Below are positions 15,340 to 54,213 of a stretch of 64,000 nt of DNA, piece by piece. A program made the position numbers and the translations under genes. Numbering within the stretch: position 1 is the stretch's first letter; each line of letters begins with the position of its first letter. The stretch is from NCBI GenBank assembly GCA_964019055.1, contig OZ025207.1, forward strand, positions 14,287,357-14,351,356, in the 5' to 3' direction. The notes under the pieces were generated by a model. The model saw only the letters and a program-made list of their open reading frames with translations. It was not told where the DNA came from and did no database searches. Source of the DNA: Anthopleura xanthogrammica. Taxonomy: Eukaryota > Cnidaria > Anthozoa > Actiniaria > Actiniidae.

Positions 15340-15499
15340 GTTTGACCTTGAATCTAAGACAAGCAAGACTGAATGTGGAGATTTCTCAGAATCTACTTAT
15401 GATGAAACAGGTGCAAGTGATCTTCAGTTCAATCCAGCAATGATTCTTTGAAGACGATTCCTGAGTTGAACAATTGAAACAAAAGACCTTATTCCGCGA

Positions 15500-16070: not shown

Positions 16071-16130
16071 GAGGCACCGGTTGTGTTTTGCAGAACTGTT
16101 CAACGACTTTTTACTGCTTCGCGCACAAGC

Positions 16131-18694: not shown

Positions 18695-18774
18695 TTAAGC
18701 AACATTGTATACAATTGAGAGGTTTTTTTCTGTGTAAGACGCATTTAACGGTGTTTTTTTTCGGACGTGACTAC

Positions 18775-19325: not shown

Positions 19326-19327
19326 AA

Positions 19328-19890
19328 AATGAAATTTGCTATACATTTTTCGCCTTCGTATTAATGACCATAAAACTCGCTTACTTCAGGATGGCAGTTT
19401 TCAATTGTTTGTTACTCTTATTTAGCATTGAATTCTGATTTTCCTGGATATGTTAACTCTTTTCTCCACGGTTGCTACATCAATATGGGTTGTAAAGATT
19501 TCATAGCCACAATTCAATTATTTCTTTGTGGTCTACTTTTCCTATTATAATTCTTTTGAACCAAAAATCAATTTCCTAATTTTGAGTACTGAAAACAATT
19601 ATTTCAGCCTTTTGTCGCAGTAACTTTTTCATCGAGTAACAAAAAGCACAACTTCTTGTCAAGTGACAAACGTTACTTTCCCTTTGTTGACAAATGTCAT
19701 CTATTAAATGTTCATTAATATTCATTAGATTCGAACCCTGAAAGTTATTTCCGTTAGATGCTAATTAAGAACTTCCTAGTTACACACAAAAAAAGATCGA
19801 AAATGAAATAAGCCTCTAAAAATTGCCACCTGTCTTTTCTCATCTATACGTCCTCACCAGATGGATATCTCGATTGGACATGTTTATAAT
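19328..19890. other. Intergenic, no supported gene
   Basis: AT-rich sequence with no recognisable coding content and no clear element ends. Confidence 0.4.
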
Positions 19891-20031: not shown

Positions 20032-20034
20032 ACT

Positions 20035-20386: not shown

Positions 20387-21474
20387 CATAGATATTGTTC
20401 AAGAAATTGCTCCCTCCATACTGGCCTGTAGCGTGCTTTCAGAGATCGGAGGAAGGGAGGGAGGGGAGGGGATCGGATTCGTTCGTGATTAATTGGCTCC
20501 TGATATGTTTCTATGGCAACGATGAAGAAGAACTTTTAATATCAGTTGAACTTTGATTGTACGGGATTCCGATGAGAACCTAATCAAAGTGCGCTTTCCA
20601 TGAGTCGGAAATGTCGAAAACTCTCAAGAAAAAGGCCTTCTCCAATATAAATTGACTGGTCTAGCCGGTCAGTCCCGACTAGTGGAAAGCGTCCTAAGGA
20701 GACTGATAATGTCTGGTGAAAAGTCCAACTTTAAAAGTTGGTTAAAAAGCCAATCAAGAAACCTTGCAATGGAATGGGGATAAAAGAACTAAAAGAGTAA
20801 CTCCTTAAGTCAATTTTTCCCCGCTATGATTTTTACCTTTCACTTCTATGTGATTTGGGCTCCCTGTGATAAAGGAACACGCCCCGATGAAGATTTCTTT
20901 GATTGACAGTTGTCTATTATTGCTCATTAACTTGTCGCGACTTTTGTCTCGATCAACGCGTGCCGGGCATTGAAAAGGTGGTGAGCTTTACTTTCATAAA
21001 ATTATGAAAGGGATTCGATGTTTTAAACTTTTTCTTCCTGTAAATTGTTTTTAGGATTAAGGGTTCTGCATCAAGACATATTCAGGACTCGTCAAACATT
21101 GAACAGGTAAATGATTATGAGGAATATCTGTCTTTTATAACTCTTGCAACGGTTTCCAGACGCCATCTTGTTTCTAAAGTTTGTACAATTGTACAATTTG
21201 TTTGAGCCATTTTATCCATCTGTGGAGTGCTGGAGGGCATCATGAAGCCCTAAGACAGCTTCAATCAGCATTACCTCGAAGAACTGAGGGTGTGCAGCAG
21301 ATTTTACCGTCAAAATGTCGTAAAGCATGTACCAAGTACGACTAAGATATTTTGGCGGGATTATCCCGTGAGCTCCTAAACAGATAGTCACAAGGTCTTA
21401 TGGTGGCATTTTCATGAGCTTTCCCTATCTAGACAATGCCCTCAGTCTGATATTTTGTCAGTAAGACCGAGTGA
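20387..21474. other. Flank left of the 177-bp array, no clear gene
   Basis: No open frame with recognisable content. A GTAAGA donor-like site at about 21460 could belong to an upstream exon of a gene running into the array, but nothing else supports that. Confidence 0.35.
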
Positions 21475-21624
21475 ATGAACACTTATAAAAATTATTCAAG
21501 ATACAAAAAACCACAAAATCCCTGTCTGTTTTTCATTAACTTTCCCATGATGCATTGCAAAATACAACAGAAAACAATAGCAAATCATCCAGATATTAGT
21601 CCCTGGGAAGAAGGGACTCTCTCG
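21475..21624 (+). other. Candidate first exon leading into the mini-exon array
   Basis: An open frame begins with ATG at 21475, encodes 32 residues (MNTYKNYSRYKKPQN onward, with a short hydrophobic patch LFFINF), and enters repeat copy 1 in the same phase as the mini-exons. It ends at the strong donor TCG|GTAAGT at 21625. It is not a convincing signal peptide. Alternatively CAACAG at 21565-21570 is the acceptor for copy 1 and the true start lies further upstream. Confidence 0.3.
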
Positions 21625-24600
21625 GTAAGTATTTGGCCCAAAAATCATTTTGGCTAAAATAGTGCAAAAATGGAATTTTTCGATGACCCCGGGGTGGGTA
21701 GAAATTTCAATTTTGGAACTTGCTGAAGTTTGGTCTCTTTTTCACAGAAAACAATAGCAAATCATCCAGATATTAGTCCCTGGGAAGAAGGGACTCTCTC
21801 GGTAAGTATTTGGCCCAAAAATCATTTTGGCTAAAATAGTGCAAAAATGGAATTTTTCGATGACCCCGGGGTGGGTAGAAATTTCAATTTTGGAACTTGC
21901 TGAAGTTTGGTCTCTTTTTCACAGAAATCAATAGCAAATCATCCAGATATTAGTCCCTGGGAAGAAGGGACTCTCTCGGTAAGTATTTGGCCCAAAAATC
22001 ATTTTGGCTAAAATAGTGCAAAAATGGAATTTTTCGATGACCCCGGGGTGGGTAGAAATTTCAATTTTGGAACTTGCTGAAGTTTGGTCTCTTTTTCACA
22101 GAAAACAATAGCAAATCATCCAGATATTAGTCCCTGGGAAGAAGGGACTCTCTCGGTAAGTATTTGGCCCAAAAATCATTTTGGCTAAAATAGTGCAAAA
22201 ATGGAATTTTTCGATGACCCCGGGGTGGGTAGAAATTTCAATTTTGGAACTTGCTGAAGTTTGGTCTCTTTTTCACAGAAAACAATAGCAAATCATCCAG
22301 ATATTAGTCCCTGGGAAGAAGGGACTCTCTCGGTAAGTATTTGGCCCAAAAATCATTTTGGCTAAAATAGTGCAAAAATGGAATTTTTCGATGACCCCGG
22401 GGTGGGTAGAAATTTCAATTTTGGAACTTGCTGAAGTTTGGTCTCTTTTTCACAGAAAACAATAGCAAATCATCCAGATATTAGTCCCTGGGAAGAAGGG
22501 ACTCTCTCGGTAAGTATTTGGCCCAAAAATCATTTTGGCTAAAATAGTGCAAAAATGGAATTTTTCGATGACCCCGGGGTGGGTAGAAATTTCAATTTTG
22601 GAACTTGCTGAAGTTTGGTCTCTTTTTCACAGAAATCAATAGCAAATCATCCAGATATTAGTCCCTGGGAAGAAGGGACTCTCTCGGTAAGTATTTGGCC
22701 CAAAAATCATTTTGGCTAAAATAGTGCAAAAATGGAATTTTTCGATGACCCCGGGGTGGGTAGAAATTTCAATTTTGGAACTTGCTGAAGTTTGGTCTCT
22801 TTTTCACAGAAAACAATAGCAAATCATCCAGATATTAGTCCCTGGGAAGAAGGGACTCTCTCGGTAAGTATTTGGCCCAAAAATCATTTTGGCTAAAATA
22901 GTGCAAAAATGGAATTTTTCGATGACCCCGGGGTGGGTAGAAATTTCAATTTTGGAACTTGCTGAAGTTTGGTCTCTTTTTCACAGAAAACAATAGCAAA
23001 TCATCCAGATATTAGTCCCTGGGAAGAAGGGACTCTCTCGGTAAGTATTTGGCCCAAAAATCATTTTGGCTAAAATAGTGCAAAAATGGAATTTTTCGAT
23101 GACCCCGGGGTGGGTAGAAATTTCAATTTTGGAACTTGCTGAAGTTTGGTCTCTTTTTCACAGAAAACAATAGCAAATCATCCAGATATTAGTCCCTGGG
23201 AAGAAGGGACTATCTCGGTAAGTATTTGGCCCAAAAATCATTTTGGCTAAAATAGTGCAAAAATGGAATTTTTCGATGACCCCGGGGTGGGTAGAAATTT
23301 CAATTTTGGAACTTGCTGAAGTTTGGTCTCTTTTTCACAGAAAACAATAGCAAATCATCCAGATATTAGTCCCTGGGAAGAAGGGACTCTCTCGGTAAGT
23401 ATTTGGCCCAAAAATCATTTTGGCTAAAATAGTGCAAAAATGGAATTTTTCGATGACCCCGGGGTGGGTAGAAATTTCAATTTTGGAACTTGCTGAAGTT
23501 TGGTCTCTTTTTCACAGAAAACAATAGCAAATCATCCAGATATTAGTCCCTGGGAAGAAGGGACTCTCTCGGTAAGTATTTGGCCCAAAAATCATTTTGG
23601 CTAAAATAGTGCAAAAATGGAATTTTTCGATGACCCCGGGGTGGGTAGAAATTTCAATTTTGGAACTTGCTGAAGTTTGGTCTCTTTTTCACAGAAAACA
23701 ATAGCAAATCATCCAGATATTAGTCCCTGGGAAGAAGGGACTCTCTCGGTAAGTATTTGGCCCAAAAATCATTTTGGCTAAAATAGTGCAAAAATGGAAT
23801 TTTTCGATGACCCCGGGGTGGGTAGAAATTTCAATTTTGGAACTTGCTGAAGTTTGGTCTCTTTTTCACAGAAATCAATAGCAAATCATCCAGATATTAG
23901 TCCCTGGGAAGAAGGGACTCTCTCGGTAAGTATTTGGCCCAAAAATCATTTTGGCTAAAATAGTGCAAAAATGGAATTTTTCGATGACCCCGGGGTGGGT
24001 AGAAATTTCAATTTTGGAACTTGCTGAAGTTTGGTCTCTTTTTCACAGAAATCAATAGCAAATCATCCAGATATTAGTCCCTGGGAAGAAGGGACTCTCT
24101 CGGTAAGTATTTGGCCCAAAAATCATTTTGGCTAAAATAGTGCAAAAATGGAATTTTTCGATGACCCCGGGGTGGGTAGAAATTTCAATTTTGGAACTTG
24201 CTGAAGTTTGGTCTCTTTTTCACAGAAAACAATAGCAAATCATCCAGATATTAGTCCCTGGGAAGAAGGGACTCTCTCGGTAAGTATTTGGCCCAAAAAT
24301 CATTTTGGCTAAAATAGTGCAAAAATGGAATTTTTCGATGACCCCGGGGTGGGTAGAAATTTCAATTTTGGAACTTGCTGAAGTTTGGTCTCTTTTTCAC
24401 AGAAAACAATAGCAAATCATCCAGATATTAGTCCCTGGGAAGAAGGGACTCTCTCGGTAAGTATTTGGCCCAAAAATCATTTTGGCTAAAATAGTGCAAA
24501 AATGGAATTTTTCGATGACCCCGGGGTGGGTAGAAATTTCAATTTTGGAACTTGCTGAAGTTTGGTCTCTTTTTCACAGAAAACAATAGCAAATCATCCA

Positions 24601-27600
24601 GATATTAGTCCCTGGGAAGAAGGGACTCTCTCGGTAAGTATTTGGCCCAAAAATCATTTTGGCTAAAATAGTGCAAAAATGGAATTTTTCGATGACCCCG
24701 GGGTGGGTAGAAATTTCAATTTTGGAACTTGCTGAAGTTTGGTCTCTTTTTCACAGAAAACAATAGCAAATCATCCAGATATTAGTCCCTGGGAAGAAGG
24801 GACTCTCTCGGTAAGTATTTGGCCCAAAAATCATTTTGGCTAAAATAGTGCAAAAATGGAATTTTTCGATGACCCCGGGGTGGGTAGAAATTTCAATTTT
24901 GGAACTTGCTGAAGTTTGGTCTCTTTTTCACAGAAAACAATAGCAAATCATCCAGATATTAGTCCCTGGGAAGAAGGGACTCTCTCGGTAAGTATTTGGC
25001 CCAAAAATCATTTTGGCTAAAATAGTGCAAAAATGGAATTTTTCGATGACCCCGGGGTGGGTAGAAATTTCAATTTTGGAACTTGCTGAAGTTTGGTCTC
25101 TTTTTCACAGAAAACAATAGCAAATCATCCAGATATTAGTCCCTGGGAAGAAGGGACTCTCTCGGTAAGTATTTGGCCCAAAAATCATTTTGGCTAAAAT
25201 AGTGCAAAAATGGAATTTTTCGATGACCCCGGGGTGGGTAGAAATTTCAATTTTGGAACTTGCTGAAGTTTGGTCTCTTTTTCACAGAAATCAATAGCAA
25301 ATCATCCAGATATTAGTCCCTGGGAAGAAGGGACTCTCTCGGTAAGTATTTGGCCCAAAAATCATTTTGGCTAAAATAGTGCAAAAATGGAATTTTTCGA
25401 TGACCCCGGGGTGGGTAGAAATTTCAATTTTGGAACTTGCTGAAGTTTGGTCTCTTTTTCACAGAAAACAATAGCAAATCATCCAGATATTAGTCCCTGG
25501 GAAGAAGGGACTCTCTCGGTAAGTATTTGGCCCAAAAATCATTTTGGCTAAAATAGTGCAAAAATGGAATTTTTCGATGACCCCGGGGTGGGTAGAAATT
25601 TCAATTTTGGAACTTGCTGAAGTTTGGTCTCTTTTTCACAGAAATCAATAGCAAATCATCCAGATATTAGTCCCTGGGAAGAAGGGACTCTCTCGGTAAG
25701 TATTTGGCCCAAAAATCATTTTGGCTAAAATAGTGCAAAAATGGAATTTTTCGATGACCCCGGGGTGGGTAGAAATTTCAATTTTGGAACTTGCTGAAGT
25801 TTGGTCTCTTTTTCACAGAAAACAATAGCAAATCATCCAGATATTAGTCCCTGGGAAGAAGGGACTCTCTCGGTAAGTATTTGGCCCAAAAATCATTTTG
25901 GCTAAAATAGTGCAAAAATGGAATTTTTCGATGACCCCGGGGTGGGTAGAAATTTCAATTTTGGAACTTGCTGAAGTTTGGTCTCTTTTTCACAGAAAAC
26001 AATAGCAAATCATCCAGATATTAGTCCCTGGGAAGAAGGGACTCTCTCGGTAAGTATTTGGCCCAAAAATCATTTTGGCTAAAATAGTGCAAAAATGGAA
26101 TTTTTCGATGACCCCGGGGTGGGTAGAAATTTCAATTTTGGAACTTGCTGAAGTTTGGTCTCTTTTTCACAGAAAACAATAGCAAATCATCCAGATATTA
26201 GTCCCTGGGAAGAAGGGACTCTCTCGGTAAGTATTTGGCCCAAAAATCATTTTGGCTAAAATAGTGCAAAAATGGAATTTTTCGATGACCCCGGGGTGGG
26301 TAGAAATTTCAATTTTGGAACTTGCTGAAGTTTGGTCTCTTTTTCACAGAAAACAATAGCAAATCATCCAGATATTAGTCCCTGGGAAGAAGGGACTCTC
26401 TCGGTAAGTATTTGGCCCAAAAATCATTTTGGCTAAAATAGTGCAAAAATGGAATTTTTCGATGACCCCGGGGTGGGTAGAAATTTCAATTTTGGAACTT
26501 GCTGAAGTTTGGTCTCTTTTTCACAGAAAACAATAGCAAATCATCCAGATATTAGTCCCTGGGAAGAAGGGACTCTCTCGGTAAGTATTTGGCCCAAAAA
26601 TCATTTTGGCTAAAATAGTGCAAAAATGGAATTTTTCGATGACCCCGGGGTGGGTAGAAATTTCAATTTTGGAACTTGCTGAAGTTTGGTCTCTTTTTCA
26701 CAGAAAACAATAGCAAATCATCCAGATATTAGTCCCTGGGAAGAAGGGACTCTCTCGGTAAGTATTTGGCCCAAAAATCATTTTGGCTAAAATAGTGCAA
26801 AAATGGAATTTTTCGATGACCCCGGGGTGGGTAGAAATTTCAATTTTGGAACTTGCTGAAGTTTGGTCTCTTTTTCACAGAAAACAATAGCAAATCATCC
26901 AGATATTAGTCCCTGGGAAGAAGGGACTCTCTCGGTAAGTATTTGGCCCAAAAATCATTTTGGCTAAAATAGTGCAAAAATGGAATTTTTCGATGACCCC
27001 GGGGTGGGTAGAAATTTCAATTTTGGAACTTGCTGAAGTTTGGTCTCTTTTTCACAGAAATCAATAGCAAATCATCCAGATATTAGTCCCTGGGAAGAAG
27101 GGACTCTCTCGGTAAGTATTTGGCCCAAAAATCATTTTGGCTAAAATAGTGCAAAAATGGAATTTTTCGATGACCCCGGGGTGGGTAGAAATTTCAATTT
27201 TGGAACTTGCTGAAGTTTGGTCTCTTTTTCACAGAAATCAATAGCAAATCATCCAGATATTAGTCCCTGGGAAGAAGGGACTCTCTCGGTAAGTATTTGG
27301 CCCAAAAATCATTTTGGCTAAAATAGTGCAAAAATGGAATTTTTCGATGACCCCGGGGTGGGTAGAAATTTCAATTTTGGAACTTGCTGAAGTTTGGTCT
27401 CTTTTTCACAGAAAACAATAGCAAATCATCCAGATATTAGTCCCTGGGAAGAAGGGACTCTCTCGGTAAGTATTTGGCCCAAAAATCATTTTGGCTAAAA
27501 TAGTGCAAAAATGGAATTTTTCGATGACCCCGGGGTGGGTAGAAATTTCAATTTTGGAACTTGCTGAAGTTTGGTCTCTTTTTCACAGAAAACAATAGCA

Positions 27601-30600
27601 AATCATCCAGATATTAGTCCCTGGGAAGAAGGGACTCTCTCGGTAAGTATTTGGCCCAAAAATCATTTTGGCTAAAATAGTGCAAAAATGGAATTTTTCG
27701 ATGACCCCGGGGTGGGTAGAAATTTCAATTTTGGAACTTGCTGAAGTTTGGTCTCTTTTTCACAGAAAACAATAGCAAATCATCCAGATATTAGTCCCTG
27801 GGAAGAAGGGACTCTCTCGGTAAGTATTTGGCCCAAAAATCATTTTGGCTAAAATAGTGCAAAAATGGAATTTTTCGATGACCCCGGGGTGGGTAGAAAT
27901 TTCAATTTTGGAACTTGCTGAAGTTTGGTCTCTTTTTCACAGAAAACAATAGCAAATCATCCAGATATTAGTCCCTGGGAAGAAGGGACTCTCTCGGTAA
28001 GTATTTGGCCCAAAAATCATTTTGGCTAAAATAGTGCAAAAATGGAATTTTTCGATGACCCCGGGGTGGGTAGAAATTTCAATTTTGGAACTTGCTGAAG
28101 TTTGGTCTCTTTTTCACAGAAAACAATAGCAAATCATCCAGATATTAGTCCCTGGGAAGAAGGGACTCTCTCGGTAAGTATTTGGCCCAAAAATCATTTT
28201 GGCTAAAATAGTGCAAAAATGGAATTTTTCGATGACCCCGGGGTGGGTAGAAATTTCAATTTTGGAACTTGCTGAAGTTTGGTCTCTTTTTCACAGAAAA
28301 CAATAGCAAATCATCCAGATATTAGTCCCTGGGAAGAAGGGACTCTCTCGGTAAGTATTTGGCCCAAAAATCATTTTGGCTAAAATAGTGCAAAAATGGA
28401 ATTTTTCGATGACCCCGGGTGGGTAGAAATTTCAATTTTGGAACTTGCTGAAGTTTGGTCTCTTTTTCACAGAAATCAATAGCAAATCATCCAGATATTA
28501 GTCCCTGGGAAGAAGGGACTCTCTCGGTAAGTATTTGGCCCAAAAATCATTTTGGCTAAAATAGTGCAAAAATGGAATTTTTCGATGACCCCGGGGTGGG
28601 TAGAAATTTCAATTTTGGAACTTGCTGAAGTTTGGTCTCTTTTTCACAGAAAACAATAGCAAATCATCCAGATATTAGTCCCTGGGAAGAAGGGACTCTC
28701 TCGGTAAGTATTTGGCCCAAAAATCATTTTGGCTAAAATAGTGCAAAAATGGAATTTTTCGATGACCCCGGGGTGGGTAGAAATTTCAATTTTGGAACTT
28801 GCTGAAGTTTGGTCTCTTTTTCACAGAAATCAATAGCAAATCATCCAGATATTAGTCCCTGGGAAGAAGGGACTCTCTCGGTAAGTATTTGGCCCAAAAA
28901 TCATTTTGGCTAAAATAGTGCAAAAATGGAATTTTTCGATGACCCCGGGGTGGGTAGAAATTTCAATTTTGGAACTTGCTGAAGTTTGGTCTCTTTTTCA
29001 CAGAAAACAATAGCAAATCATCCAGATATTAGTCCCTGGGAAGAAGGGACTCTCTCGGTAAGTATTTGGCCCAAAAATCATTTTGGCTAAAATAGTGCAA
29101 AAATGGAATTTTTCGATGACCCCGGGGTGGGTAGAAATTTCAATTTTGGAACTTGCTGAAGTTTGGTCTCTTTTTCACAGAAAACAATAGCAAATCATCC
29201 AGATATTAGTCCCTGGGAAGAAGGGACTCTCTCGGTAAGTATTTGGCCCAAAAATCATTTTGGCTAAAATAGTGCAAAAATGGAATTTTTCGATGACCCC
29301 GGGGTGGGTAGAAATTTCAATTTTGGAACTTGCTGAAGTTTGGTCTCTTTTTCACAGAAAACAATAGCAAATCATCCAGATATTAGTCCCTGGGAAGAAG
29401 GGACTCTCTCGGTAAGTATTTGGCCCAAAAATCATTTTGGCTAAAATAGTGCAAAAATGGAATTTTTCGATGACCCCGGGGTGGGTAGAAATTTCAATTT
29501 TGGAACTTGCTGAAGTTTGGTCTCTTTTTCACAGAAAACAATAGCAAATCATCCAGATATTAGTCCCTGGGAAGAAGGGACTCTCTCGGTAAGTATTTGG
29601 CCCAAAAATCATTTTGGCTAAAATAGTGCAAAAATGGAATTTTTCGATGACCCCGGGGTGGGTAGAAATTTCAATTTTGGAACTTGCTGAAGTTTGGTCT
29701 CTTTTTCACAGAAAACAATAGCAAATCATCCAGATATTAGTCCCTGGGAAGAAGGGACTCTCTCGGTAAGTATTTGGCCCAAAAATCATTTTGGCTAAAA
29801 TAGTGCAAAAATGGAATTTTTCGATGACCCCGGGGTGGGTAGAAATTTCAATTTTGGAACTTGCTGAAGTTTGGTCTCTTTTTCACAGAAAACAATAGCA
29901 AATCATCCAGATATTAGTCCCTGGGAAGAAGGGACTCTCTCGGTAAGTATTTGGCCCAAAAATCATTTTGGCTAAAATAGTGCAAAAATGGAATTTTTCG
30001 ATGACCCCGGGGTGGGTAGAAATTTCAATTTTGGAACTTGCTGAAGTTTGGTCTCTTTTTCACAGAAATCAATAGCAAATCATCCAGATATTAGTCCCTG
30101 GGAAGAAGGGACTCTCTCGGTAAGTATTTGGCCCAAAAATCATTTTGGCTAAAATAGTGCAAAAATGGAATTTTTCGATGACCCCGGGGTGGGTAGAAAT
30201 TTCAATTTTGGAACTTGCTGAAGTTTGGTCTCTTTTTCACAGAAAACAATAGCAAATCATCCAGATATTAGTCCCTGGGAAGAAGGGACTCTCTCGGTAA
30301 GTATTTGGCCCAAAAATCATTTTGGCTAAAATAGTGCAAAAATGGAATTTTTCGATGACCCCGGGGTGGGTAGAAATTTCAATTTTGGAACTTGCTGAAG
30401 TTTGGTCTCTTTTTCACAGAAAACAATAGCAAATCATCCAGATATTAGTCCCTGGGAAGAAGGGACTCTCTCGGTAAGTATTTGGCCCAAAAATCATTTT
30501 GGCTAAAATAGTGCAAAAATGGAATTTTTCGATGACCCCGGGGTGGGTAGAAATTTCAATTTTGGAACTTGCTGAAGTTTGGTCTCTTTTTCACAGAAAA

Positions 30601-33600
30601 CAATAGCAAATCATCCAGATATTAGTCCCTGGGAAGAAGGGACTCTCTCGGTAAGTATTTGGCCCAAAAATCATTTTGGCTAAAATAGTGCAAAAATGGA
30701 ATTTTTCGATGACCCCGGGGTGGGTAGAAATTTCAATTTTGGAACTTGCTGAAGTTTGGTCTCTTTTTCACAGAAAACAATAGCAAATCATCCAGATATT
30801 AGTCCCTGGGAAGAAGGGACTCTCTCGGTAAGTATTTGGCCCAAAAATCATTTTGGCTAAAATAGTGCAAAAATGGAATTTTTCGATGACCCCGGGGTGG
30901 GTAGAAATTTCAATTTTGGAACTTGCTGAAGTTTGGTCTCTTTTTCACAGAAAACAATAGCAAATCATCCAGATATTAGTCCCTGGGAAGAAGGGACTCT
31001 CTCGGTAAGTATTTGGCCCAAAAATCATTTTGGCTAAAATAGTGCAAAAATGGAATTTTTCGATGACCCCGGGGTGGGTAGAAATTTCAATTTTGGAACT
31101 TGCTGAAGTTTGGTCTCTTTTTCACAGAAAACAATAGCAAATCATCCAGATATTAGTCCCTGGGAAGAAGGGACTCTCTCGGTAAGTATTTGGCCCAAAA
31201 ATCATTTTGGCTAAAATAGTGCAAAAATGGAATTTTTCGATGACCCCGGGGTGGGTAGAAATTTCAATTTTGGAACTTGCTGAAGTTTGGTCTCTTTTTC
31301 ACAGAAATCAATAGCAAATCATCCAGATATTAGTCCCTGGGAAGAAGGGACTCTCTCGGTAAGTATTTGGCCCAAAAATCATTTTGGCTAAAATAGTGCA
31401 AAAATGGAATTTTTCGATGACCCCGGGGTGGGTAGAAATTTCAATTTTGGAACTTGCTGAAGTTTGGTCTCTTTTTCACAGAAAACAATAGCAAATCATC
31501 CAGATATTAGTCCCTGGGAAGAAGGGACTCTCTCGGTAAGTATTTGGCCCAAAAATCAGTTTGGCTAAAATAGTGCAAAAATGGAATTTTTCGATGACCC
31601 CGGGGTGGGTAGAAATTTCAATTTTGGAACTTGCTGAAGTTTGGTCTCTTTTTCACAGAAATCAATAGCAAATCATCCAGATATTAGTCCCTGGGAAGAA
31701 GGGACTCTCTCGGTAAGTATTTGGCCCAAAAATCATTTTGGCTAAAATAGTGCAAAAATGGAATTTTTCGATGACCCCGGGGTGGGTAGAAATTTCAATT
31801 TTGGAACTTGCTGAAGTTTGGTCTCTTTTTCACAGAAAACAATAGCAAATCATCCAGATATTAGTCCCTGGGAAGAAGGGACTCTCTCGGTAAGTATTTG
31901 GCCCAAAAATCATTTTGGCTAAAATAGTGCAAAAATGGAATTTTTCGATGACCCCGGGGTGGGTAGAAATTTCAATTTTGGAACTTGCTGAAGTTTGGTC
32001 TCTTTTTCACAGAAAACAATAGCAAATCATCCAGATATTAGTCCCTGGGAAGAAGGGACTCTCTCGGTAAGTATTTGGCCCAAAAATCATTTTGGCTAAA
32101 ATAGTGCAAAAATGGAATTTTTCGATGACCCCGGGGTGGGTAGAAATTTCAATTTTGGAACTTGCTGAAGTTTGGTCTCTTTTTCACAGAAAACAATAGC
32201 AAATCATCCAGATATTAGTCCCTGGGAAGAAGGGACTCTCTCGGTAAGTATTTGGCCCAAAAATCATTTTGGCTAAAATAGTGCAAAAATGGAATTTTTC
32301 GATGACCCCGGGGTGGGTAGAAATTTCAATTTTGGAACTTGCTGAAGTTTGGTCTCTTTTTCACAGAAAACAATAGCAAATCATCCAGATATTAGTCCCT
32401 GGGAAGAAGGGACTCTCTCGGTAAGTATTTGGCCCAAAAATCATTTTGGCTAAAATAGTGCAAAAATGGAATTTTTCGATGACCCCGGGGTGGGTAGAAA
32501 TTTCAATTTTGGAACTTGCTGAAGTTTGGTCTCTTTTTCACAGAAAACAATAGCAAATCATCCAGATATTAGTCCCTGGGAAGAAGGGACTCTCTCGGTA
32601 AGTATTTGGCCCAAAAATCATTTTGGCTAAAATAGTGCAAAAATGGAATTTTTCGATGACCCCGGGGTGGGTAGAAATTTCAATTTTGGAACTTGCTGAA
32701 GTTTGGTCTCTTTTTCACAGAAAACAATAGCAAATCATCCAGATATTAGTCCCTGGGAAGAAGGGACTCTCTCGGTAAGTATTTGGCCCAAAAATCATTT
32801 TGGCTAAAATAGTGCAAAAATGGAATTTTTCGATGACCCCGGGGTGGGTAGAAATTTCAATTTTGGAACTTGCTGAAGTTTGGTCTCTTTTTCACAGAAA
32901 ACAATAGCAAATCATCCAGATATTAGTCCCTGGGAAGAAGGGACTCTCTCGGTAAGTATTTGGCCCAAAAATCATTTTGGCTAAAATAGTGCAAAAATGG
33001 AATTTTTCGATGACCCCGGGGTGGGTAGAAATTTCAATTTTGGAACTTGCTGAAGTTTGGTCTCTTTTTCACAGAAAACAATAGCAAATCATCCAGATAT
33101 TAGTCCCTGGGAAGAAGGGACTCTCTCGGTAAGTATTTGGCCCAAAAATCATTTTGGCTAAAATAGTGCAAAAATGGAATTTTTCGATGACCCCGGGGTG
33201 GGTAGAAATTTCAATTTTGGAACTTGCTGAAGTTTGGTCTCTTTTTCACAGAAAACAATAGCAAATCATCCAGATATTAGTCCCTGGGAAGAAGGGACTC
33301 TCTCGGTAAGTATTTGGCCCAAAAATCATTTTGGCTAAAATAGTGCAAAAATGGAATTTTTCGATGACCCCGGGGTGGGTAGAAATTTCAATTTTGGAAC
33401 TTGCTGAAGTTTGGTCTCTTTTTCACAGAAAACAATAGCAAATCATCCAGATATTAGTCCCTGGGAAGAAGGGACTCTCTCGGTAAGTATTTGGCCCAAA
33501 AATCATTTTGGCTAAAATAGTGCAAAAATGGAATTTTTCGATGACCCCGGGGTGGGTAGAAATTTCAATTTTGGAACTTGCTGAAGTTTGGTCTCTTTTT

Positions 33601-42600: not shown

Positions 42601-45600
42601 GAACTTGCTGAAGTTTGGTCTCTTTTTCACAGAAAACAATAGCAAATCATCCAGATATTAGTCCCTGGGAAGAAGGGACTCTCTCGGTAAGTATTTGGCC
42701 CAAAAGTCATTTTGGCTAAAATAGTGCAAAAATGGAATTTTTCGATGACCCCGGGGTGGGTAGAAATTTCAATTTTGGAACTTGCTGAAGTTTGGTCTCT
42801 TTTTCACAGAAAACAATAGCAAATCATCCAGATATTAGTCCCTGGGTAGAAGGGACTCTCTCGGTAAGTATTTGGCCCAAAAATCATTTTGGCTAAAATA
42901 GTGCAAAAATGGAATTTTTCGATGACCCCGGGGTGGGTAGAAATTTCAATTTTGGAACTTGCTGAAGTTTGGTCTCTTTTTCACAGAAAACAATAGCAAA
43001 TCATCCAGATATTAGTCCCTGGGAAGAAGGGACTCTCTCGGTAAGTATTTGACCCAAAAATCATTTTGGCTAAAATAGTGCAAAAATGGAATTTTTCGAT
43101 GACCCCGGGGTGGGTAGAAATTTCAATTTTGGAACTTGCTGAAGTTTGGTCTCTTTTTCACAGAAAACAATAGCAAATCATCCAGATATTAGTCCCTGGG
43201 AAGAAGGGACTCTCTCGGTAAGTATTTGACCCAAAAATCATTTTGGCTAAAATAGTGCAAAAATGGAATTTTTCGATGACCCCGGGGTGGGTAGAAATTT
43301 CAATTTTGGAACTTGCTGAAGTTTGGTCTCTTTTTCACAGAAAACAATAGCAAATCATCCAGATATTAGTCTCTGGGAAGAAGGGACTCTCTCGGTAAGT
43401 ATTTGGCCCAAAAATCATTTTGGCTAAAATAGTGCAAAAATGGAATTTTTCAATGACCCCGGGGTGGGTAGAAATTTCAATTTTGGAACTTGCTGAAGTT
43501 TGGTCTCTTTTTCACAGAAAACAATAGCAAATCATCCAGATATTAGTCCCTGGGAAGAAGGGACTCTCTCGGTAAGTATTTGGCCCAAAAGTCATTTTGG
43601 CTAAAATAGTGCAAAAATGGAATTTTTCGATGACCCCGGGGTGGGTAGAAATTTCAATTTTGGAACTTGCTGAAGTTTGGTCTCTTTTTCACAGAAAACA
43701 ATAGCAAATCATCCAGATATTAGTCCCTGGGAAGAAGGGACTCTCTCAGTAAGTATTTGGCCCAAAAGTCATTTTGGCTAAAATAGTGCAAAAATGGAAT
43801 TTTTCGAAGACCCCGGGGTGGGTAGAAATTTCAATTTTGGAACTTGCTGAAGTTTGGCCCCTTTTTCACAGAAAACAATAGCAAATCATCCAGATATTAG
43901 TCCCTGGGAAGAAGGGACTCTCTCGGTAAGTATTTGGCCCAAAAGTCATTTTGGCTAAAATAGTGCAAAAATGGAATTTTTCGATGACCCCGGGGTGGGT
44001 AGAAATTTCAATTTTTGAACTTGCTGAAGTTTGGTCTCTTTTTCACAGAAAACAATAGCAAATCATCCAGATATTAGTCCCTGGGAAGAAGGGACTCTCT
44101 CGGTAAGTATTTGGCCCAAAAATCATTTTGGCTAAAATAGTGCAAAAATGGAATTTTTCGATGACCCCGGGGTGGGTAGAAATTTCAATTTTGGAACTTG
44201 CTGAAGTTTGGTCTCTTTTTCACAGAAAACAATAGCAAATCATCCAGATATTAGTCCCTGGGAAGAAGGGACTCTCTCGGTAAGTATTTGGCCCAAAAGT
44301 CATTTTGGCTAAAATAGTGCAAAAATGGAATTTTTCGATGACCCCGGGGTGGGTAGAAATTTCAATTTTGGAACTTGCTGAAGTTTGGTCTCTTTTTCAC
44401 AGAAAACAATAGCAAATCATCCAGATATTAGTCCCTGGGAAGAAGGGACTCTCTCGGTAAGTATTTGGCCCAAAAGTCATTTTGGCTAAAATAGTGCAAA
44501 AATGGAATTTTTCGATGACCCCGGGGTGGGTAGAAATTTCAATTTTGGAACTTGCTGAAGTTTGGTCTCTTTTTCACAGAAAACAATAGCAAATCATCCA
44601 GATATTAGTCCCTGGGAAGAAGGGACTCTCTCGGTAAGTATTTGGCCCAAAAATCATTTTGGCTAAAATAGTGCAAAAATGGAATTTTTCGATGACCCCG
44701 GGGTGGGTAGAAATTTCAATTTTGGAACTTGCTGAAGTTTGGTCTCTTTTTCACAGAAAACAATAGCAAATCATCCAGATATTAGTCCCTGGGAAGAAGG
44801 GACTCTCTCGGTAAGTATTTGGCCCAAAAATCATTTTGGCTAAAATAGTGCAAAAATGGAATTTTTCGATGACCCCGGGGTGGGTAGAAATTTCAATTTT
44901 GGAACTTGCTGAAGTTTGGTCTCTTTTTCACAGAAAACAATAGCAAATCATCCAGATATTAGTCCCTGGGAAGAAGGGACTCTCTCGGTAAGTATTTGGC
45001 CCAAAAGTCATTTTGGCTAAAATAGTGCAAAAATGGAATTTTTCAATGACCCCGGGGTGGGTAGAAATTTCAATTTTGGAACTTGCTGAAGTTTGGTCTC
45101 TTTTTCACAGAAAACAATAGCAAATCATCCAGATATTAGTCCCTGGGAAGAAGGGACTCTCTCGGTAAGTATTTGGCCCAAAAATCATTTTGGCTAAAAT
45201 AGTGCAAAAATGGAATTTTTCGATGACCCCGGGGTGGGTAGAAATTTCAATTTTGGAACTTGCTGAAGTTTGGTCTCTTTTTCACAGAAAACAATAGCAA
45301 ATCATCCAGATATTAGTCCCTGGGAAGAAGGGACTCTCTCGGTAAGTATTTGGCCCAAAAATCATTTTGGCTAAAATAGTGCAAAAATGGAATTTTTCGA
45401 TGACCCCGGGGTGGGTAGAAATTTCAATTTTGGAACTTGCTGAAGTTTGGTCTCTTTTTCACAGAAAACAATAGCAAATCATCCAGATATTAGTCCCTGG
45501 GAAGAATGGACTCTCTCGGTAAGTATTTGGCCCAAAAGTCATTTTGGCTAAAATAGTGCAAAAATGGAATTTTTCAATGACCCCGGGGTGGGTAGAAATT

Positions 45601-46928
45601 TCAATTTTGGAACTTGCTGAAGTTTGGTCTCTTTTTCACAGAAAACAATAGCAAATCATCCAGATATTAGTCCCTGGGAAGAAGGGACTCTCTCGGTAAG
45701 TATTTGGCCCAAAAATCATTTTGGCTAAAATAGTGCAAAAATGGAATTTTTCGATGACCCCGGGGTGGGTAGAAATTTCAATTTTGGAACTTGCTGAAGT
45801 TTGGTCTCTTTTTCACACAAAAAAATAGCAAATCATCCAGATATTAGTCCCTGGGAAGAAGGGACTCTCTCGGTAAGTATTTGGCCCAAAAATCATTTTG
45901 GCTAAAATAGTGCAAAAATGGAATTTTTCGATGACCCCGGGGTGGGTAGAAATTTCAATTTTGGAACTTGCTGAAGTTTGGTCTCTTTTTCACAGAAAAC
46001 AATAGCAAATCATCCAGATATTAGTCCCTGGGAAGAAGGGACTCTCTCGGTAAGTATTTGGCCCAAAAATCATTTTGGCTAAAATAGTGCAAAAATGGAA
46101 TTTTTCGATGACCCCGGGGTGGGTAGAAATTTCAATTTTGGAACTTGCTGAAGTTTGGTCTCTTTTTCACAGAAAACAATAGCAAATCATCCAGATATTA
46201 GTCCCTGGGAAGAAGGGACTCTCTCGGTAAGTATTTGGCCCAAAAGTCATTTTGGCTAAAATAGTGCAAAAATGGAATTTTTCAATGACCCCGGGGTGGG
46301 TAGAAATTTCAATTTTGGAACTTGCTGAAGTTTGGTCTCTTTTTCACAGAAAACAATAGCAAATCATCCAGATATTAGTCCCTGGGAAGAAGGGACTCTC
46401 TCGGTAAGTATTTGGCCCAAAAATCATTTTGGCTAAAATAGTGCAAAAATGGAATTTTTCGATGACCCCGGGGTGGGTAGAAATTTCAATTTTGGAACTT
46501 GCTGAAGTTTGGTCTCTTTTTCACAGAAAACAATAGCAAATCATCCAGATATTAGTCCCTGGGAAGAAGGGACTCTCTCGGTAAGTATTTGGCCCAAAAG
46601 TCATTTTGGCTAAAATAGTGCAAAAATGGAATTTTTCAATGACCCCGGGGTGGGTAGAAATTTCAATTTTGGAACTTGCTGAGGTTTGGTCTCTTTTTCA
46701 CAGAAAACAATAGCAAATCATCCAGATATTAGTCCCTGGGAAGAAGGGACTCTCTCGGTAAGTATTTGGCCCAAAAATCATTTTGGCTAAAATAGTGCAA
46801 AAATGGAATTTTTCGATGACCCCAGGGTGGGTAGAAATTTCAATTTTGGAACTTGCTGAAGTTTGGTCTCTTTTTCACAGAAAACAATAGCAAATCATCC
46901 AGATATTAGTCCCTGGGAAGAAGGGACT
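21568..46928 (+). repeat. 177-bp exon-intron tandem array, left block (143 full units plus part of unit 144)
   Basis: The period is exactly 177 bp; phase drifts by only 1 nt over 25 kb, from a lost G at about 28418. Each unit is a 54-nt open segment (copy 1 at 21571-21624) encoding KTIANHPDISPWEEGTLS in phase 0, then 123 nt that begin GTAAGTATTTGG and end GGTCTCTTTTTCACAG, matching consensus splice donor and acceptor. Every frame of the unspliced unit has a stop, so the protein would exist only after splicing. Units are almost identical. Variants include T2 to S in 13 copies, E to V in seven copies and AAAAATC to AAAAGTC in the intron. One acceptor is lost before copy 138 (CACAC). It is either a gene of very many duplicated mini-exons or a satellite derived from one. 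The left edge falls at an exon start. Confidence 0.95.
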
Positions 46929-47377
46929 TGTAACGCACTTATCAGACGTTAGGGTACGCAATTTTAAATAAAGTCATAAGAACCCAGTATTTTGAACTCG
47001 CTGTAGTAGTTTAATCAACAAACGACACGGTATTATACGGAATTATACGGTTCGAAAACTACAAAACAAAGCAAGGAAAATAGGGTTATAAACTACAATA
47101 AATACAGAGAAATTACAAACAATTATCTAGGAAATCCTTACTTACATTACTGGGCCTTTTTATACGAATGGAAGTCGAGAGATTGAAATAAAAATGTAGA
47201 AAATATAGCAAGAACTTATATATTATTACTAGCACATGGGTTTCTTTGCTCAACGTCTTCCCTACGTTATACCCTCCGGCGCGACTCCGCTGACCGGAAG
47301 TGTCAAAAAATTAACCGGAAATCACAACAATATGAACGACAAAAACAGTACAGTATCAAGAACGTTCAGCCATTACA
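46929..47377 (-). repeat. 3' LTR of the BEL/Pao element (449 bp)
   Basis: On the plus strand it begins TGTAACGCACTTATCAGACG and ends CAGCCATTACA. It is identical to the other LTR except for an extra AATTATACGG at 47041-47050 and G instead of A at 47278. Confidence 0.95.
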
Positions 47378-47387
47378 TCCCGCCTCC
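47378..47387 (-). promoter_or_regulatory. Polypurine tract of the BEL/Pao element
   Basis: On the coding (minus) strand GGAGGCGGGA directly abuts the 3' LTR, the expected site for the plus-strand primer. Confidence 0.65.
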
Positions 47388-47493
47388 AATGCGTTGCCAC
47401 TGCGATGCATTTAGATACACGGATGGCTGAAATATTGATATCTTCAAGTGTTCATTGTTCATGGATGAGCCGTGGATCAGTATACGGACAAGA

Positions 47494-50400
47494 TCAGTTA
47501 TCAGACTGCAGCATATCTCCCTCTAGTAGACAAATCTTGTCAACGGGCCGATCGTACACTCCAGTTTGGGTCTTCACTTGAACGGATCGCACAAGGCCAT
47601 CTGATCCTGGATAGGTGTCGACGATGAGCCCAAGAGGCCAACGTAGACGTGCAGTATTGTCGTGCTTCACTAGTACCAAGTCTCCAACTTTAAGGCTACG
47701 CTTTGGGCGCAGCCACTTCTGGCGCACTTGAAGTGTTGGCAGGTATTCGCTCAGCCAGCGCTTCCAGAAGACGTCTGCCATATATTGAACCTGACGCCAA
47801 CGTCTCCTGTAGAGATCTTGTTTAACGAACATTCCTGAAGGAAGGGTTGGGCCCGAACGAAGCAAGAGAAGATGGTTTGGTGTCAGAGGAGTAAGATCCT
47901 TCGGATCGTCCGAGATCCTTGTGATGGGACGTCCATTGACAATTCCTTCGACGATGCACATCAAGGTTGACAGTCCTTCATCATCTAAGACCTGTAGGGG
48001 AAGTAGACCTCTCAGAACTGAACGAACAGTACGGATCTGTCTCTCCCAGACACCTCCCATATGGGAAGCACCTGGTGGGTTGTAGATCCACTGTATTTCC
48101 CTCTTGCGAAGAAAGTCATCAATTTGAGCTTGATTCCACTGTTTGAGGGCTCGTCGCAGTTCTACTTGAGCACCGGTGAAGTTAGTTCCATTATCAGAAC
48201 GGATCTCAACAGGTTCGCCACGGCGAGCGATGAATCGCTGAAGTACATTTATGAAAGAATCAGTCTCAAGTGTGTGACTAACTTCAATGTGGATGGCTCT
48301 TGTAGTGAGGCAGGTGAAGATGCAACCGTACCTCTTGAGTTCGCTCCTGGCTCGTTTTACGAGAAAGGGTCCAAAATAGTCCACCCCTACGCGTGTAAAG
48401 GGTGCTTCGTTGGGTGTTATGCGGTCCTTAGGCAGATCTCCCATGAATTGAGACACTGGCTGTGCCCTCAATTTCTTGCATGTGATGCATTTGGATAGTA
48501 CTCTTCTTACCGTCTTCTTACTCTTCTTTATCTCCGTTGGCATGGGATCATCCCAGCCAGATTTAATTCGGCAAAGTTCTTGGAATAACATCTTCGCCCT
48601 TAGTACGAAGGGGCTCACAAACCCAAGCGGGTCATACACTGAGCTGACGGTACTCAGTAGCCCACGCCGAGTAAATGGCCTTTCTTCTGGGTGCACATCA
48701 AATCCGTAGGTGTCGGACTCCACCTGCCATAATACGCCGAGAGTTCTTTCAGCAGGCAACAGCTCTTGATCTAAGTCAAGTGTCTTGACTTCCTTGGACC
48801 ACTCAACTTCCGGCACGGTGCGGAGAACTTCTCTTGAGTTGCTGATCCATTTGGTAAGGTTGAAACCGCTCCTTGATAGCAGCTCTCGCAACTCTTTGAC
48901 TAGACTCACTGCCTCCCCAAGGGAGGCAACAGACTTTAAACAGTCGTCAACATAAAAATTTCTATCAACTGTGGAGATCGTGTTTGGATCAAAGTCCTTT
49001 ACATTGTCCTGTGCACATTTCTTCAGTGCAAAGTTGGCACAACTGGGGGACCACACTCCTCCGAAGAGGTGGGTTTTCATCCAGTACACCAATGGAGTCT
49101 TAGTCGGGTCATCATCTTTCCACCAAAGGAATCGAAGAGCATCACGATCATTTTCACTCACGTGTACCTGGTTGAACATGCCCTGGATATCTGCCATCAA
49201 AGCAATAGGCTCCTGCCTAAAGCGAAGCAATACGCCGACAAGGCTATTCGTCAGATCAGGGCCTTGATGGACTTTGTCATTCAAAGACACTCCTCGATAC
49301 TTGGCAGCGCAATCGTATACAAGTCTGCACTTGTCTGGTTTTCTTGGATGCAACACTGGATGATGGGGAAGGAACCAAGTGTAGCCTTCTCTACCTTTCA
49401 GATTATCATCTGTCACAGGCTCAGCATACCCTTTTTCAAGGAGTTCGTGTACACTCGCAATATACTTTTCTGACAACTCCGGGTTTTTCTGTAGTCTCTT
49501 CCCAAGAAGATGCAGCCGATGTTCGGCCATCAGACGGTTGTCTGGCAACTCAGGTGGTCTTTCTTTAAATGGAATGTCCATGGTGTAGTGTTGATCAACA
49601 AGCTTTACTGATTCTTTCCAAACATTCAAGGCCTTTCTGTCGCTGCTAGACAAGCCTAGGCTGTCACCACAATCATCATCTTCTAACTTCCAAAGGGTTT
49701 CTAGTTGACGCTCAATGTTCAGTTCTGGTTTGGCGCTTGTGAAGTTCGAGGAGGTGAAAGTGGCTAGCTTGTCTTGGCCAATAGGGCCATTCATGACCCA
49801 GCCTAAAGCAGTGAGACAAGCATATGGCTCACCAGGCTTCCCTCTTCGGGTTTCCCCTGGGAATGTAAGGTCTGGAGTGTCCTGTCCAATGAGCAAATGA
49901 ACCTCATTGACATTCAGCTTAGGCATGTATATATCTTCTAGGTGAGGCCATTCTTTGAGGTCGGTTGACGTGGCCAAGTTGTCCAGCCCGATGTTCAAAG
50001 AAGGACGGACCATTACTCCTGTCATGTCGAATTGTGGTCCACCATTTACGTTTGAGACTTGCAGGTTGACGAAATCTGCTTTGACTGGAGTGTTGCTTTC
50101 GTGAATAGTAGACAAATTACATGTATAATTCTTTCTTGGGACACCTAGGTGTTGGGCAAGTTCTTCCGAACAATATCCACTGGTTCCACCAGGATCTATT
50201 AAAGCATAGGTATCCGTGTAATTATCAAGTCCTTTGCCCCTCACACGAACAGCAACAATGGGAAGGGCAACCTTTTCCTTGCCTCCGGCCACAAAATGAC
50301 TGTTACCTGAAGCCTTGGGTTGTTCAGGTTGTCTTGCAACTTCAGATTCTTGGGGTAGCCTGGGTGGCAGATGTAGAAATTTGCTGTGCTTTTGACCACA

Positions 50401-52512
50401 GCCATCGATGGTGCACACAAAGGGCCTACTACAGTCCCTACCCAGGTGACCAGGCTTAAAACAATTAACACAAAGTCTCTTAGATTGGATAAAGGCTAGA
50501 CGATCTTTCACGCGAAGAGCCTTGAAGTCCTTGCACTGGGTAAGGTAGTGGTGTCCTCCACATTTCACGCAAGGCTCCTTTGGCGTACTGTAGGAACTTG
50601 TGCTAGTCACAGGCGGGAATTGCATTACTGCAGGTGCTGGATTACTTCTAGGCACAGCCTGAGTGGCATGGCTGCCTTTACTTCTCCGTTTGGAATCTTG
50701 AGACCTTCTACTGTCAACCCTGGCCGGTGTTTCCTTGGGTGCCAGGGTTTTTCCGAAAACTGGATCCGATTCTTGTTGTGCTGCATCCGTCACTAAACGT
50801 ATAACATCGGCGAGAGTGGGATGGCGATTTTCCTTGTACTTTATCGCGTGGTTCACTTTCAGCAAGCGGGAGTGCAGATAAGCTGGTAACTTCTCCACTA
50901 TCTGACAGAGGCTTCTGCGGGTCTCAAGCTCATTTAGGTAACCCATCGTGAGCAGAGTTTCCCTACAGGTTCGGAGCTCATCGGCGAAGGTCTGCAAACC
51001 TTGTGTGTCCTTAATCTTTGGTCGATCAAGTATCTTGGCTATCCAAGCCTGAGGTATGACATCATTGTTACCGAAGCGTTCCTTAAGGAGCTCCCATGCA
51101 AGCTGATACCCTTCCGTGGGCTCTTTCACAAGACAACATTGCAGCAAACTTCTCGCCTTTCCGGTGCAGTATTGCATAAGGCTGTTCAATTTAGAACCAT
51201 CATCATCTGATTTGCTGTCAACCGCATTAGTAAATGCTCTGATAAAGGGCCAATACTTCAAAGGGTCTCCATCGAAGGTCATCAACTCAATCTTCGGTCT
51301 CTGCAAGCTATCTACAAGCGACTGTTGGTGCATTCTGGTGTCATTCATCATCTGCTGAAGCACATCTGCAAAGGTAGTATGTGGTGCATGCTGAGGCATG
51401 GAGTCCCCTCTATACGAGGCTGAGGGGGTCCAGGGTGGTTGGCGTATCTCGGCATCACCGGGTTTAAACTGTGGGGTGTAGTGAGCCCCTCCAACTGACT
51501 GAATGGGCTCCGGAGGGGGTGGCTGTAGGTCTCGCTTCGGTGTAGATACATTTGGTGTGGAGTGGGTGAAGCGCAGATCTACTTTGGCAACTTTCGTTGC
51601 CACGTCAGTAGGTGTATCCTCCTTGGTTTCAGTATTCATCTTTAGTTGGGCTAACTCAGCCTTCATATGCTTCATTTCTTCTTCCATAATTTTGCGTCGT
51701 TTCTCTAACTCTAATTGTAGCTTGATCCTTTGACGCTCCAGATTCATTTGTTCTTCGAGCTCCTGACTCTTGAGCTCGAATGCCTCCAATTCTAGAGCTT
51801 GTTGTCGCTTGACAGCCTGCACCTTAGCTTCAAGGGCAGCATTATGTTGTACTGTTTGTTCAATATCCAATTGCTTATATTGTAACTCTTTAACCTTTTC
51901 ATCCTCAACTTCATCGTCCATTTCATTGTTTTCTTCATTTTCATCATCGTCTTGTTCATTATCTGGTTCATCGTGGTCTTTATCTTGATCCTCCAACTCA
52001 GCAATCCAGGCACCAACTACATCGTTGAACTCATTTGCCGGAGCAATTGCATTTTGCCAATATTCTTCTGCAACCAGACGGTCATTGTCATCTGTAAGGC
52101 GGTCAGAATACGCATTGTGGGCAGTGGCAAAATCTTGCCTTAATTGGTCAAACTCTATCATTCGCTCCTTTACTGCCACAAGATTGGAGTCAACGGCCAT
52201 TAGCTTATCCACGGCTGTTATGATTCTTGTTACTGCCGCCTTCACTACGGCACGACGTGACTTGAGATGGGTAATTTCATCTTGTAATTCATTAGGCTCT
52301 TCAACGATTTCAACATTTTCTTCTCCAGACAAATTTACAGCAAATAAGCCAAACAACGGCACAAATATAGCTTGGTTTGATCTTGAATTCGGTACCTGTC
52401 CCAACGGCGATAATTTCAACCACGGCGATAATTTCCAACAATGGCGATAATTTCCAAGAATGGCGATAATTTTTCGAACTGTAACGCACTTATCAGACGT
52501 TAGGGTACGCAA
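47494..52512 (-). CDS. BEL/Pao polyprotein (Gag-protease-RT-integrase), RNase H deleted
   Basis: A single open frame of 1,672 codons. It starts in the LTR at a TTG, and the first in-frame ATG is codon 105 (52200). In order: a Gag-like N-terminus, an acidic stretch (175-205), a coiled coil (about 205-295), a DUF1759-type Gag domain (about 404-560), CCHC knuckles (C648-C660 and C681-C694), and a protease with D773-P-G-G. Reverse transcriptase follows, with D1108 and YVDD at 1187-1190, then the peptidase-A17-like region to about 1320. Integrase has D1378, D1440 and E1490, and a C-terminal domain (about 1567-1660). At codons 1328-1330 the A17 region (GWDDPMPTE) is joined directly to [14 protein letters not shown], the end of the integrase zinc finger. 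RNase H and the finger's histidines are therefore missing, though the frame stays open. Confidence 0.92.
52401..52479 (-). repeat. Leader repeat after the BEL/Pao 5' LTR
   Basis: On the plus strand the motif GGCGATAATTT occurs four times at about 19-bp spacing just inside the 5' LTR. No primer-binding site beginning TGG is visible next to the LTR; the leader there reads GTTCGAAAAATT. Confidence 0.7.
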
Positions 52513-52918
52513 TTTTAAATAAAGTCATAAGAACCCAGTATTTTGAACTCGCTGTAGTAGTTTAATCAACAAACGACACGGTATTATACGGTTCGAAAAC
52601 TACAAAACAAAGCAAGGAAAATAGGGTTATAAACTACAATAAATACAGAGAAATTACAAACAATTATCTAGGAAATCCTTACTTACATTACTGGGCCTTT
52701 TTATACGAATGGAAGTCGAGAGATTGAAATAAAAATGTAGAAAATATAGCAAGAACTTATATATTATTACTAGCACATGGGTTTCTTTGCTCAACGTCTT
52801 CCCTACGTTATACCCTCCAGCGCGACTCCGCTGACCGGAAGTGTCAAAAAATTAACCGGAAATCACAACAATATGAACGACAAAAACAGTACAGTATCAA
52901 GAACGTTCAGCCATTACA
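52480..52918 (-). repeat. 5' LTR of the BEL/Pao element (439 bp)
   Basis: Near-identical partner of 46929-47377. Transcription of the element would start here and run towards lower coordinates. Confidence 0.95.
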
Positions 52919-54192
52919 GGACTCTCTCGGTAAGTATTTGGCCCAAAAATCATTTTGGCTAAAATAGTGCAAAAATGGAATTTTTCGATGACCCCGGGGT
53001 GGGTAGAAATTTCAATTTTGGAACTTGCTGAAGTTTGGTCTCTTTTTCACAGAAAACAATAGCAAATCATCCAGATATTAGTCCCTGGGAAGAAGGGACT
53101 CTCTCGGTAAGTATTTGGCCCAAAAGTCATTTTGGCTAAAATAGTGCAAAAATGGAATTTTTCGATGACCCCGGGGTGGGTAGAAATTTCCATTTTGGAA
53201 CTTGCTGAAGTTTGGTCTCTTTTTCACAGAAAACAATAGCAAATCATCCAGATATTAGTCCCTGGGAAGAAGGGACTCTCTCGGTAAGTATTTGGCCCAA
53301 AAATCATTTTGGCTAAAATAGTGCAAAAATGGAATTTTTCGATGACCCCGGGGTGGGTAGAAATTTCAATTTTGGAACTTGCTGAAGTTTGGTCTCTTTT
53401 TCACAGAAAACAATAGCAAATCATCCAGATATTAGTCCCTGGGAAGAAGGGACTCTCTCGGTAAGTATTTGGCCCAAAAATCATTTTGGCTAAAATAGTG
53501 CAAAAATGGAATTTTTCGATGACCCCGGGGTGGGTAGAAATTTCAATTTTGGAACTTGCTGAAGTTTGGTCTCTTTTTCACAGAAAACAATAGCAAATCA
53601 TCCAGATATTAGTCCCTGGGAAGAAGGGACTCTCTCGGTAAGTATTTGGCCCAAAAGTCATTTTGGCTAAAATAGTGCAAAAATGGAATTTTTCGATGAC
53701 CCCGGGGTGGGTAGAAATTTCAATTTTGGAACTTGCTGAAGTTTGGTCTCTTTTTCACAGAAAACAATAGCAAATCATCCAGATATTAGTCCCTGGGAAG
53801 AAGGGACTCTCTCGGTAAGTATTTGGCCCAAAAATCATTTTGGCTAAAATAGTGCAAAAATGGAATTTTTCGATGACCCTGGGGTGGGTAGAAATTTCAA
53901 TTTTGGAACTTGCTGAAGTTTGGTCTCTTTTTCACAGAAAACAATAGCAAATCATCCAGATATTAGTCCCTGGGAAGAAGGGACTCTCTCGGTAAGTATT
54001 TGGCCCAAAAGTCATTTTGGCTAAAATAGTGCAAAAATGGAATTTTTCGATGACCCCGGGGTGGGTAGAAATTTCAATTTTGGAACTTGCTGAAGTTTGG
54101 TCTCTTTTTCACAGAAAACAATAGCAAATCATCCAGATATTAGTCCCTGGGAAGAAGGGACTCTCGGTAAGTATTTGGCCCAAAAATCATTT
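52919..54192 (+). repeat. 177-bp exon-intron tandem array, right block (end of unit 144 and seven more)
   Basis: This continues the array after the insertion. Exon copies start at 53053, 53230, 53407, 53584, 53761, 53938 and 54115. The last exon (54115-54166) lacks 2 nt (ACTCTCGG instead of ACTCTCTCGG). Read without splicing, it runs on past the donor to a TGA at 54211-54213, so it could act as a terminal exon. Unit homology ends about 27 nt into the last intron at about 54192. Confidence 0.95.
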
Positions 54193-54213
54193 GATTTTCT
54201 GTTGATGTTCTGA

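Follow-up and report, generated by a model that had tools for sequence, protein, structure and literature searches.

A 177-bp satellite with exon grammar in the sea anemone Anthopleura xanthogrammica

Genes with amplified small exons are known, among them collagen with its exons of 54 bp, nebulin, and lipoprotein(a) with its kringle repeats. Satellite DNA can likewise carry short conserved elements, as alpha satellite does with the CENP-B box. Among noncoding RNAs, the lncRNA Firre contains a repeating RNA domain (RRD) which corresponds to 7 of 13 human exons and overlaps 11 of 23 mouse exons (PMC4820808).

The stretch of DNA studied here (the window, 64,000 nucleotides) is part of a 27.7-Mb contig, in a genome of 290 Mb, and contains a tandem array, named W, which can be compared with each of these systems. 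It resembles Firre in that locally repeated sequence would provide the exons of a noncoding RNA and in that six related arrays have no conserved reading frame. The repeated exons are few in Firre, whereas here about 151 near-identical and regular 177-bp units are found, together with several paralogous arrays. Alpha satellite is also tandem and homogenised, has a unit of 170–180 bp and shows short conserved blocks amid variable sequence. In the present unit, by contrast, what is conserved is a donor, acceptor and branch-like motif, correctly ordered and spaced. Amplified exon–intron units are shared with collagen, nebulin and lipoprotein(a), and the collagen exons likewise measure 54 nt. However, the exons of these genes are in-frame and coding, whereas here no frame is maintained from array to array, and the W unit, when translated, lacks the Gly-X-Y pattern of collagen. 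Nothing describing the 177-bp unit was found in the literature at the level of titles and abstract openings.

Array W is built of 177-bp tandem units about 99% alike. Each unit consists of a 54-nt mini-exon, bounded by TCTCTTTTTCACAG and TCG/GTAAGT, and a 123-nt intron. The exon-core motif has 151 matches within the window; inside the array, exact copies of the acceptor CTCTTTTTCACAG number 148 and GGTAAGT donors 150. KTIANHPDISPWEEGTLS is encoded exactly by 123 of the 147 full-length 177-bp units. The giant array of mini-exon and intron units described in an earlier note on this DNA is thus real, with about 151 copies between 21571 and 54192. Three details of that description have to be corrected: the copies are near-identical, not identical, the exon of the last copy is not of full length, and the array is not unbroken. 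It is split by an LTR retrotransposon, putatively of the BEL/Pao group.

21571..46928, plus strand: left part of array W, about 143 units; first mini-exon 21571-21624
46929..52918, minus strand: LTR retrotransposon, 5,990 bp; long ORF 47494-52524
about 46929-47377 and 52480-52918, minus strand: LTRs of the inserted element; target-site duplication GGACT
52919..54192, plus strand: right part of array W, about 7 units; last copy with a 52-nt exon

Across 449 aligned positions only a single mismatch and a single gap separate the two LTRs, which are thus nearly identical, so the insertion is recent. The final copy of the array is short by 2 nt, which places its exon out of phase, and stops 26 nt into the intron. 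No regular higher-order period is found in W or in the related array C; in the latter, near neighbours are slightly more similar than distant units.

A cluster of rhodopsin-type GPCR genes and fragments occupies 651-19360 of the window in both orientations. All four neighbouring forward ORFs scanned match 7tm_1, and two minus-strand ORFs downstream of the array gave no Pfam match. For one neighbouring GPCR the best named matches are Actinia tenebrosa proteins with at most 59% identity, and unnamed proteins score equally. Two features stand close to the left end of the array.

18695..19360, minus strand: rhodopsin-GPCR-like ORF, labelled from similar window neighbours that match 7tm_1
21204..21491, plus strand: dispersed-repeat relic; resemblance ends shortly before the array start

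The ORF is divergent in orientation from the array and part of a duplicated locus, with homologous stretches in the loci of two other arrays (B and C, see below). The relic has many matches of 76–78% genome-wide, and three family copies examined are 97–98% alike. Further downstream, at 63218-63628, a 48-bp tandem repeat of 8.6 copies overlaps a minus-strand frame open for 139 codons.

At least six related arrays (W, B, H, G, C and D) are distributed over two large contigs. This count is a lower bound, since the genome DNA search skips common words and, when run with the unit of G itself, failed to list G.

C2:14637891-14641452, strand opposite to W: array B, 19 full units
about C2:7591.5-7628.5 kb: array C, 211 matches over 37.0 kb
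C6:12864610 onward: array D; contigs C107 and C24 are of the same type
C2 between about 15529.3 and 15555 kb: array G, with array sequence at both ends and in three of three interior samples
C2, 14746-14747 kb: array H, with array sequence also in three of three samples up to 14760.8 kb

Further samples of D gave array sequence at C6:12870 kb and other sequence at C6:12880 kb. Contig C107 is an unplaced 18.3-kb contig made nearly entirely of the 177-bp unit, in both orientations with switches, and is perhaps an assembly fragment of array D. Two stray satellite copies of about 1.4 units each are present on C6. One of them (C6:13318762-13319016) lies by eye inside LTR-element-like sequence, and its first unit reads CACTG in place of CACAG.

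All five other arrays have at least one flank in common with W. Long common flanks join W and B, with 92–98% identity in the main blocks, and the W stretches 18923-21566 and 54193-54464 are missing from locus B. The left flank of W is also found at C (86–93% in the main blocks), D (91%) and G (85%), and the right flank at H (94%), G (93%) and B (96%). After the conserved flank, one and the same base begins the array in W, C and D. The first copy in G is degenerate, and at the C2:14802 kb flank, which is possibly upstream of H, the array does not follow directly. Edge units in G and H are degenerate and have lost their signals. The earlier note had counted copies elsewhere without gene context, together with an absence of spliced reads, against its reading. 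Copies elsewhere do exist, and five further arrays share the locus flanks of W.

Differences from the consensus per site amount to 0.2–0.3% in W, 0.8–0.9% in C and 0 in B, while the consensus sequences differ from each other by 3% (C–D) to 16% (W–D). Units are thus more alike within arrays than between them, as in concerted evolution. Long head-to-tail arrays, occurrence at several loci and degenerate edge units are the properties of a satellite, and the anatomy of the array is that of a satellite with exon grammar. Of the earlier suggestion that a satellite captured an exon and its intron, the satellite half is supported by the homogenised units, the variable copy number, the several loci and the degenerate edges.

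More distant matches to the right flank of W, at 72–74% identity, are found at seven loci in C2 0.5-2.2 Mb and represent older paralogs. An nhmmer search listed 10 unit matches (9 at E<0.001) in six of these seven loci, three of which hold at least two units each. Wherever the acceptor place is covered in these units the AG is absent, and GATGG-type repeats then follow. Since the older paralogs keep one or more degenerate units, a low-copy form probably preceded the arrays.

We compared the splice signals with the rest of the unit by counting changes on a tree of six unit sequences, with a topology set by us as W,(B,H) versus G,(C,D), in which G and H each stand as one chosen unit. The splice core comprises the 14-nt acceptor and the 9-nt donor, and is exactly that of the motifs in the earlier note. 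It shows 0 changes over 23 sites, against 58 changes over the remaining 154 sites. The permutation p-value for this depletion is 0.0012, the same when stratified by base; for wider zones of our own choice (2 changes over 33 sites) it is 0.002–0.003, and all these values are approximate because the six unit sequences share ancestry. A circular-shift control of the 23-nt core is weaker than the permutation, with 6 of 177 shifts equalling it. The two longest invariant runs across the six units are GTCTCTTTTTCACAGAAA and CTCTCGGTAAGTATTT; the one at the acceptor measures 18 nt and the one at the donor 16 nt. A branch-site-like CTNA about 20 nt before the acceptor end is invariant save at N. Among the 16 sampled H exons the end is TCG in 11 (as in the chosen unit), TCA in 4 and TAA in 1. 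Within arrays the depletion in the wide zones is weak: 3 distinct variants versus 4.3 expected in W, and 5 versus 10.3 in C (153 units).

The interiors behave differently from the signals. Exon and intron interiors have changed at one rate, 0.40 per site, with 18 changes in the 45 exon sites and 38 in the 96 intron sites. The earlier statement that no purifying selection is visible holds for the exon body and needs amending for the splice signals. At the level of sequence comparison, the exon body is without sign of constraint, and between arrays significantly fewer changes than expected fall on the splice signals. Free exon content with fixed splice signals is as expected for an RNA that is spliced and untranslated. 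A self-complementary run of about 60 nt suggested an RNA structure in the intron; this idea was dropped, as the structures obtained for five introns do not agree (z from -3.5 to -0.05).

Candidate exons are predicted on both sides of the array.

21055..21106, plus strand: predicted upstream exon, 52 nt; donor GTAAATG kept in the four aligned loci W, C, D and G
54303..54466, plus strand: predicted downstream exon, 164 nt; both the acceptor (CACAG) and the donor (GGTA) conserved in 10 of 10 aligned loci
54978..55260, plus strand: predicted terminal exon, end approximate; AATAAA at 55236

The ten loci of the downstream alignment are W, H, G and the seven older paralogs; one base of G in it is an artefact from joining two overlapping pieces. 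In the predicted terminal exon, the acceptor and AATAAA are kept in all nine loci that reach that far. Indels within the predicted downstream exons do not come in multiples of three, as would suit a noncoding RNA. The introns around them are likewise well conserved, so that the downstream candidates, and with them the proposal that the flanking blocks are exons of an RNA containing the array, are suggestive only. The stretches holding the predicted upstream exon and the first predicted downstream exon are those absent from locus B.

With these data we consider, at about even confidence, that the array is a satellite whose unit, a 54-nt exon-type segment plus a 123-nt stretch with intron signals, would be transcribed and spliced into a long noncoding RNA consisting mostly of repeats of that one mini-exon. 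The serious rival, which we place appreciably short of even, is a neutral satellite. Its arrays would be unspliced and would have inherited the splice-like motifs by accident or from an exon now dead; chance, common descent or a box of the satellite to which a protein binds would account for the invariant blocks. Homogenised arrays in several places, the stray copies on C6, a contig consisting almost wholly of the unit in both orientations and the degenerate edge units all fit such a satellite, as does the tolerance of a young retrotransposon within W. What it does not readily explain is that the core stays unchanged while the remaining sites vary, that the invariant blocks fall precisely on donor and acceptor, and that the branch-like motif is kept as well. 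Moreover, in dinucleotide shuffles of the unit, read on either strand, a donor GTAAGT and a pyrimidine-tract-CAG acceptor at exon-like spacing appear in only 10 of 4000. Two further observations lend weight to the neutral satellite. The truncated locus B is the most homogeneous array, with 19 of 19 full units identical, and keeps its signals without the flanking candidate exons; and the older units are without the acceptor AG.

Much less probable is the other option raised in the earlier note, namely that the array encodes a protein of about 2,700 residues in which one 18-residue motif is repeated. Frames were counted in 54-nt exons whose acceptor and GTAAGT could be recognised; in W the two end copies and the one interrupted by the LTR element fall outside this set. 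Frame 0 is free of stops in W (148 of 148 exons), B (20 of 20), C (200 of 200) and D (99 of 99, from C107), and the predicted upstream exon can be read into it by eye. The stop-free frame 0 reported earlier for W is therefore found in all 148 exons of 54 nt, with the exception that the last copy, of 52 nt, is out of phase. In G and H, however, frame 0 is stopped in 21 of 21 and 16 of 16 sampled exons, so a repeat protein as a property of the whole family is rejected. The other frames fail elsewhere: frame 1 is stopped in 148 of 148 exons of W, 20 of 20 of B, 4 of 200 of C and 16 of 16 of H (none of 99 in D, none of 21 in G), and frame 2 in every exon of W, B, C, D and G and in 8 of 16 of H. 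No frame is open in all six arrays, and in the sampled H units no frame is open throughout while GTAAGT is intact in 16 of 16. Exon length also argues against translation, with 8 of 208 measured exons in C being 53, 55 or 56 nt and 1 of 22 in G having a length that is not a multiple of three.

Among exon variants within W and C (147 and 153 units), 22 of 28 distinct changes are nonsynonymous, compared with about 78% of the possible changes. Nonsynonymous changes are thus not rarer than expected, contrary to what a repeat protein would show, and the share equals expectation, which also speaks against positive selection on the exon. None of these variants makes a stop; this says little, as a stop would arise from just 6 of the 162 possible single changes. 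Two protein searches, with the frame-0 and frame-1 repeats, scored 7997 and 7994 candidates and gave no match at E values up to 10; candidates had to be 0.55–1.75 times as long as the queries (234 and 612 aa), limits under which a 2,700-residue protein would not be a candidate. Judged from the sequence, the repeat-protein reading is unlikely.

A tandem transposable element with fixed ends, or a ribozyme-bearing retrozyme, is scarcely credible: on the right, arrays W, B and C and one stray copy do all terminate at unit positions 74-80, but the left flanks of W, C and D are homologous up to the array and the right flank of W is common to B, G and H, so that duplicated loci with shared flanks account for the common ends, and for a hammerhead or other ribozyme the whole window gave no Rfam match at gathering scores and the folded introns no consistent fold.

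For the spliced satellite, we envisage that a low-copy ancestral unit was expanded by unequal crossing-over within duplicated loci and that new units without splicing were disfavoured. The RNA would start at or upstream of 21055-21106, run through about 150 mini-exons, amount to about 8 kb when spliced, and end after 55236. What such an RNA might do is a matter of speculation; nuclear retention through its repeated exons, on the model of Firre, is one example.

More broadly, and with a confidence somewhat below even, the arrays may constitute a family of giant exon-satellite genes. In such a family a noncoding 54-nt exon with its intron would have been copied from about 20 to more than 200 times, would have remained splice-competent through selection on the splice signals alone, and would give RNAs thousands of bases long in which a single exon is repeated. 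If the arrays are unspliced, they give a clear warning that a satellite with flawless exon grammar can lead gene finders to call a 2,700-residue protein wrongly. If they are spliced, one pre-RNA with about 150 identical donors and acceptors would offer a natural stress test of the spliceosome's ability to pair sites without skipping, and selection would see splicing only and be blind to the content of the exon.
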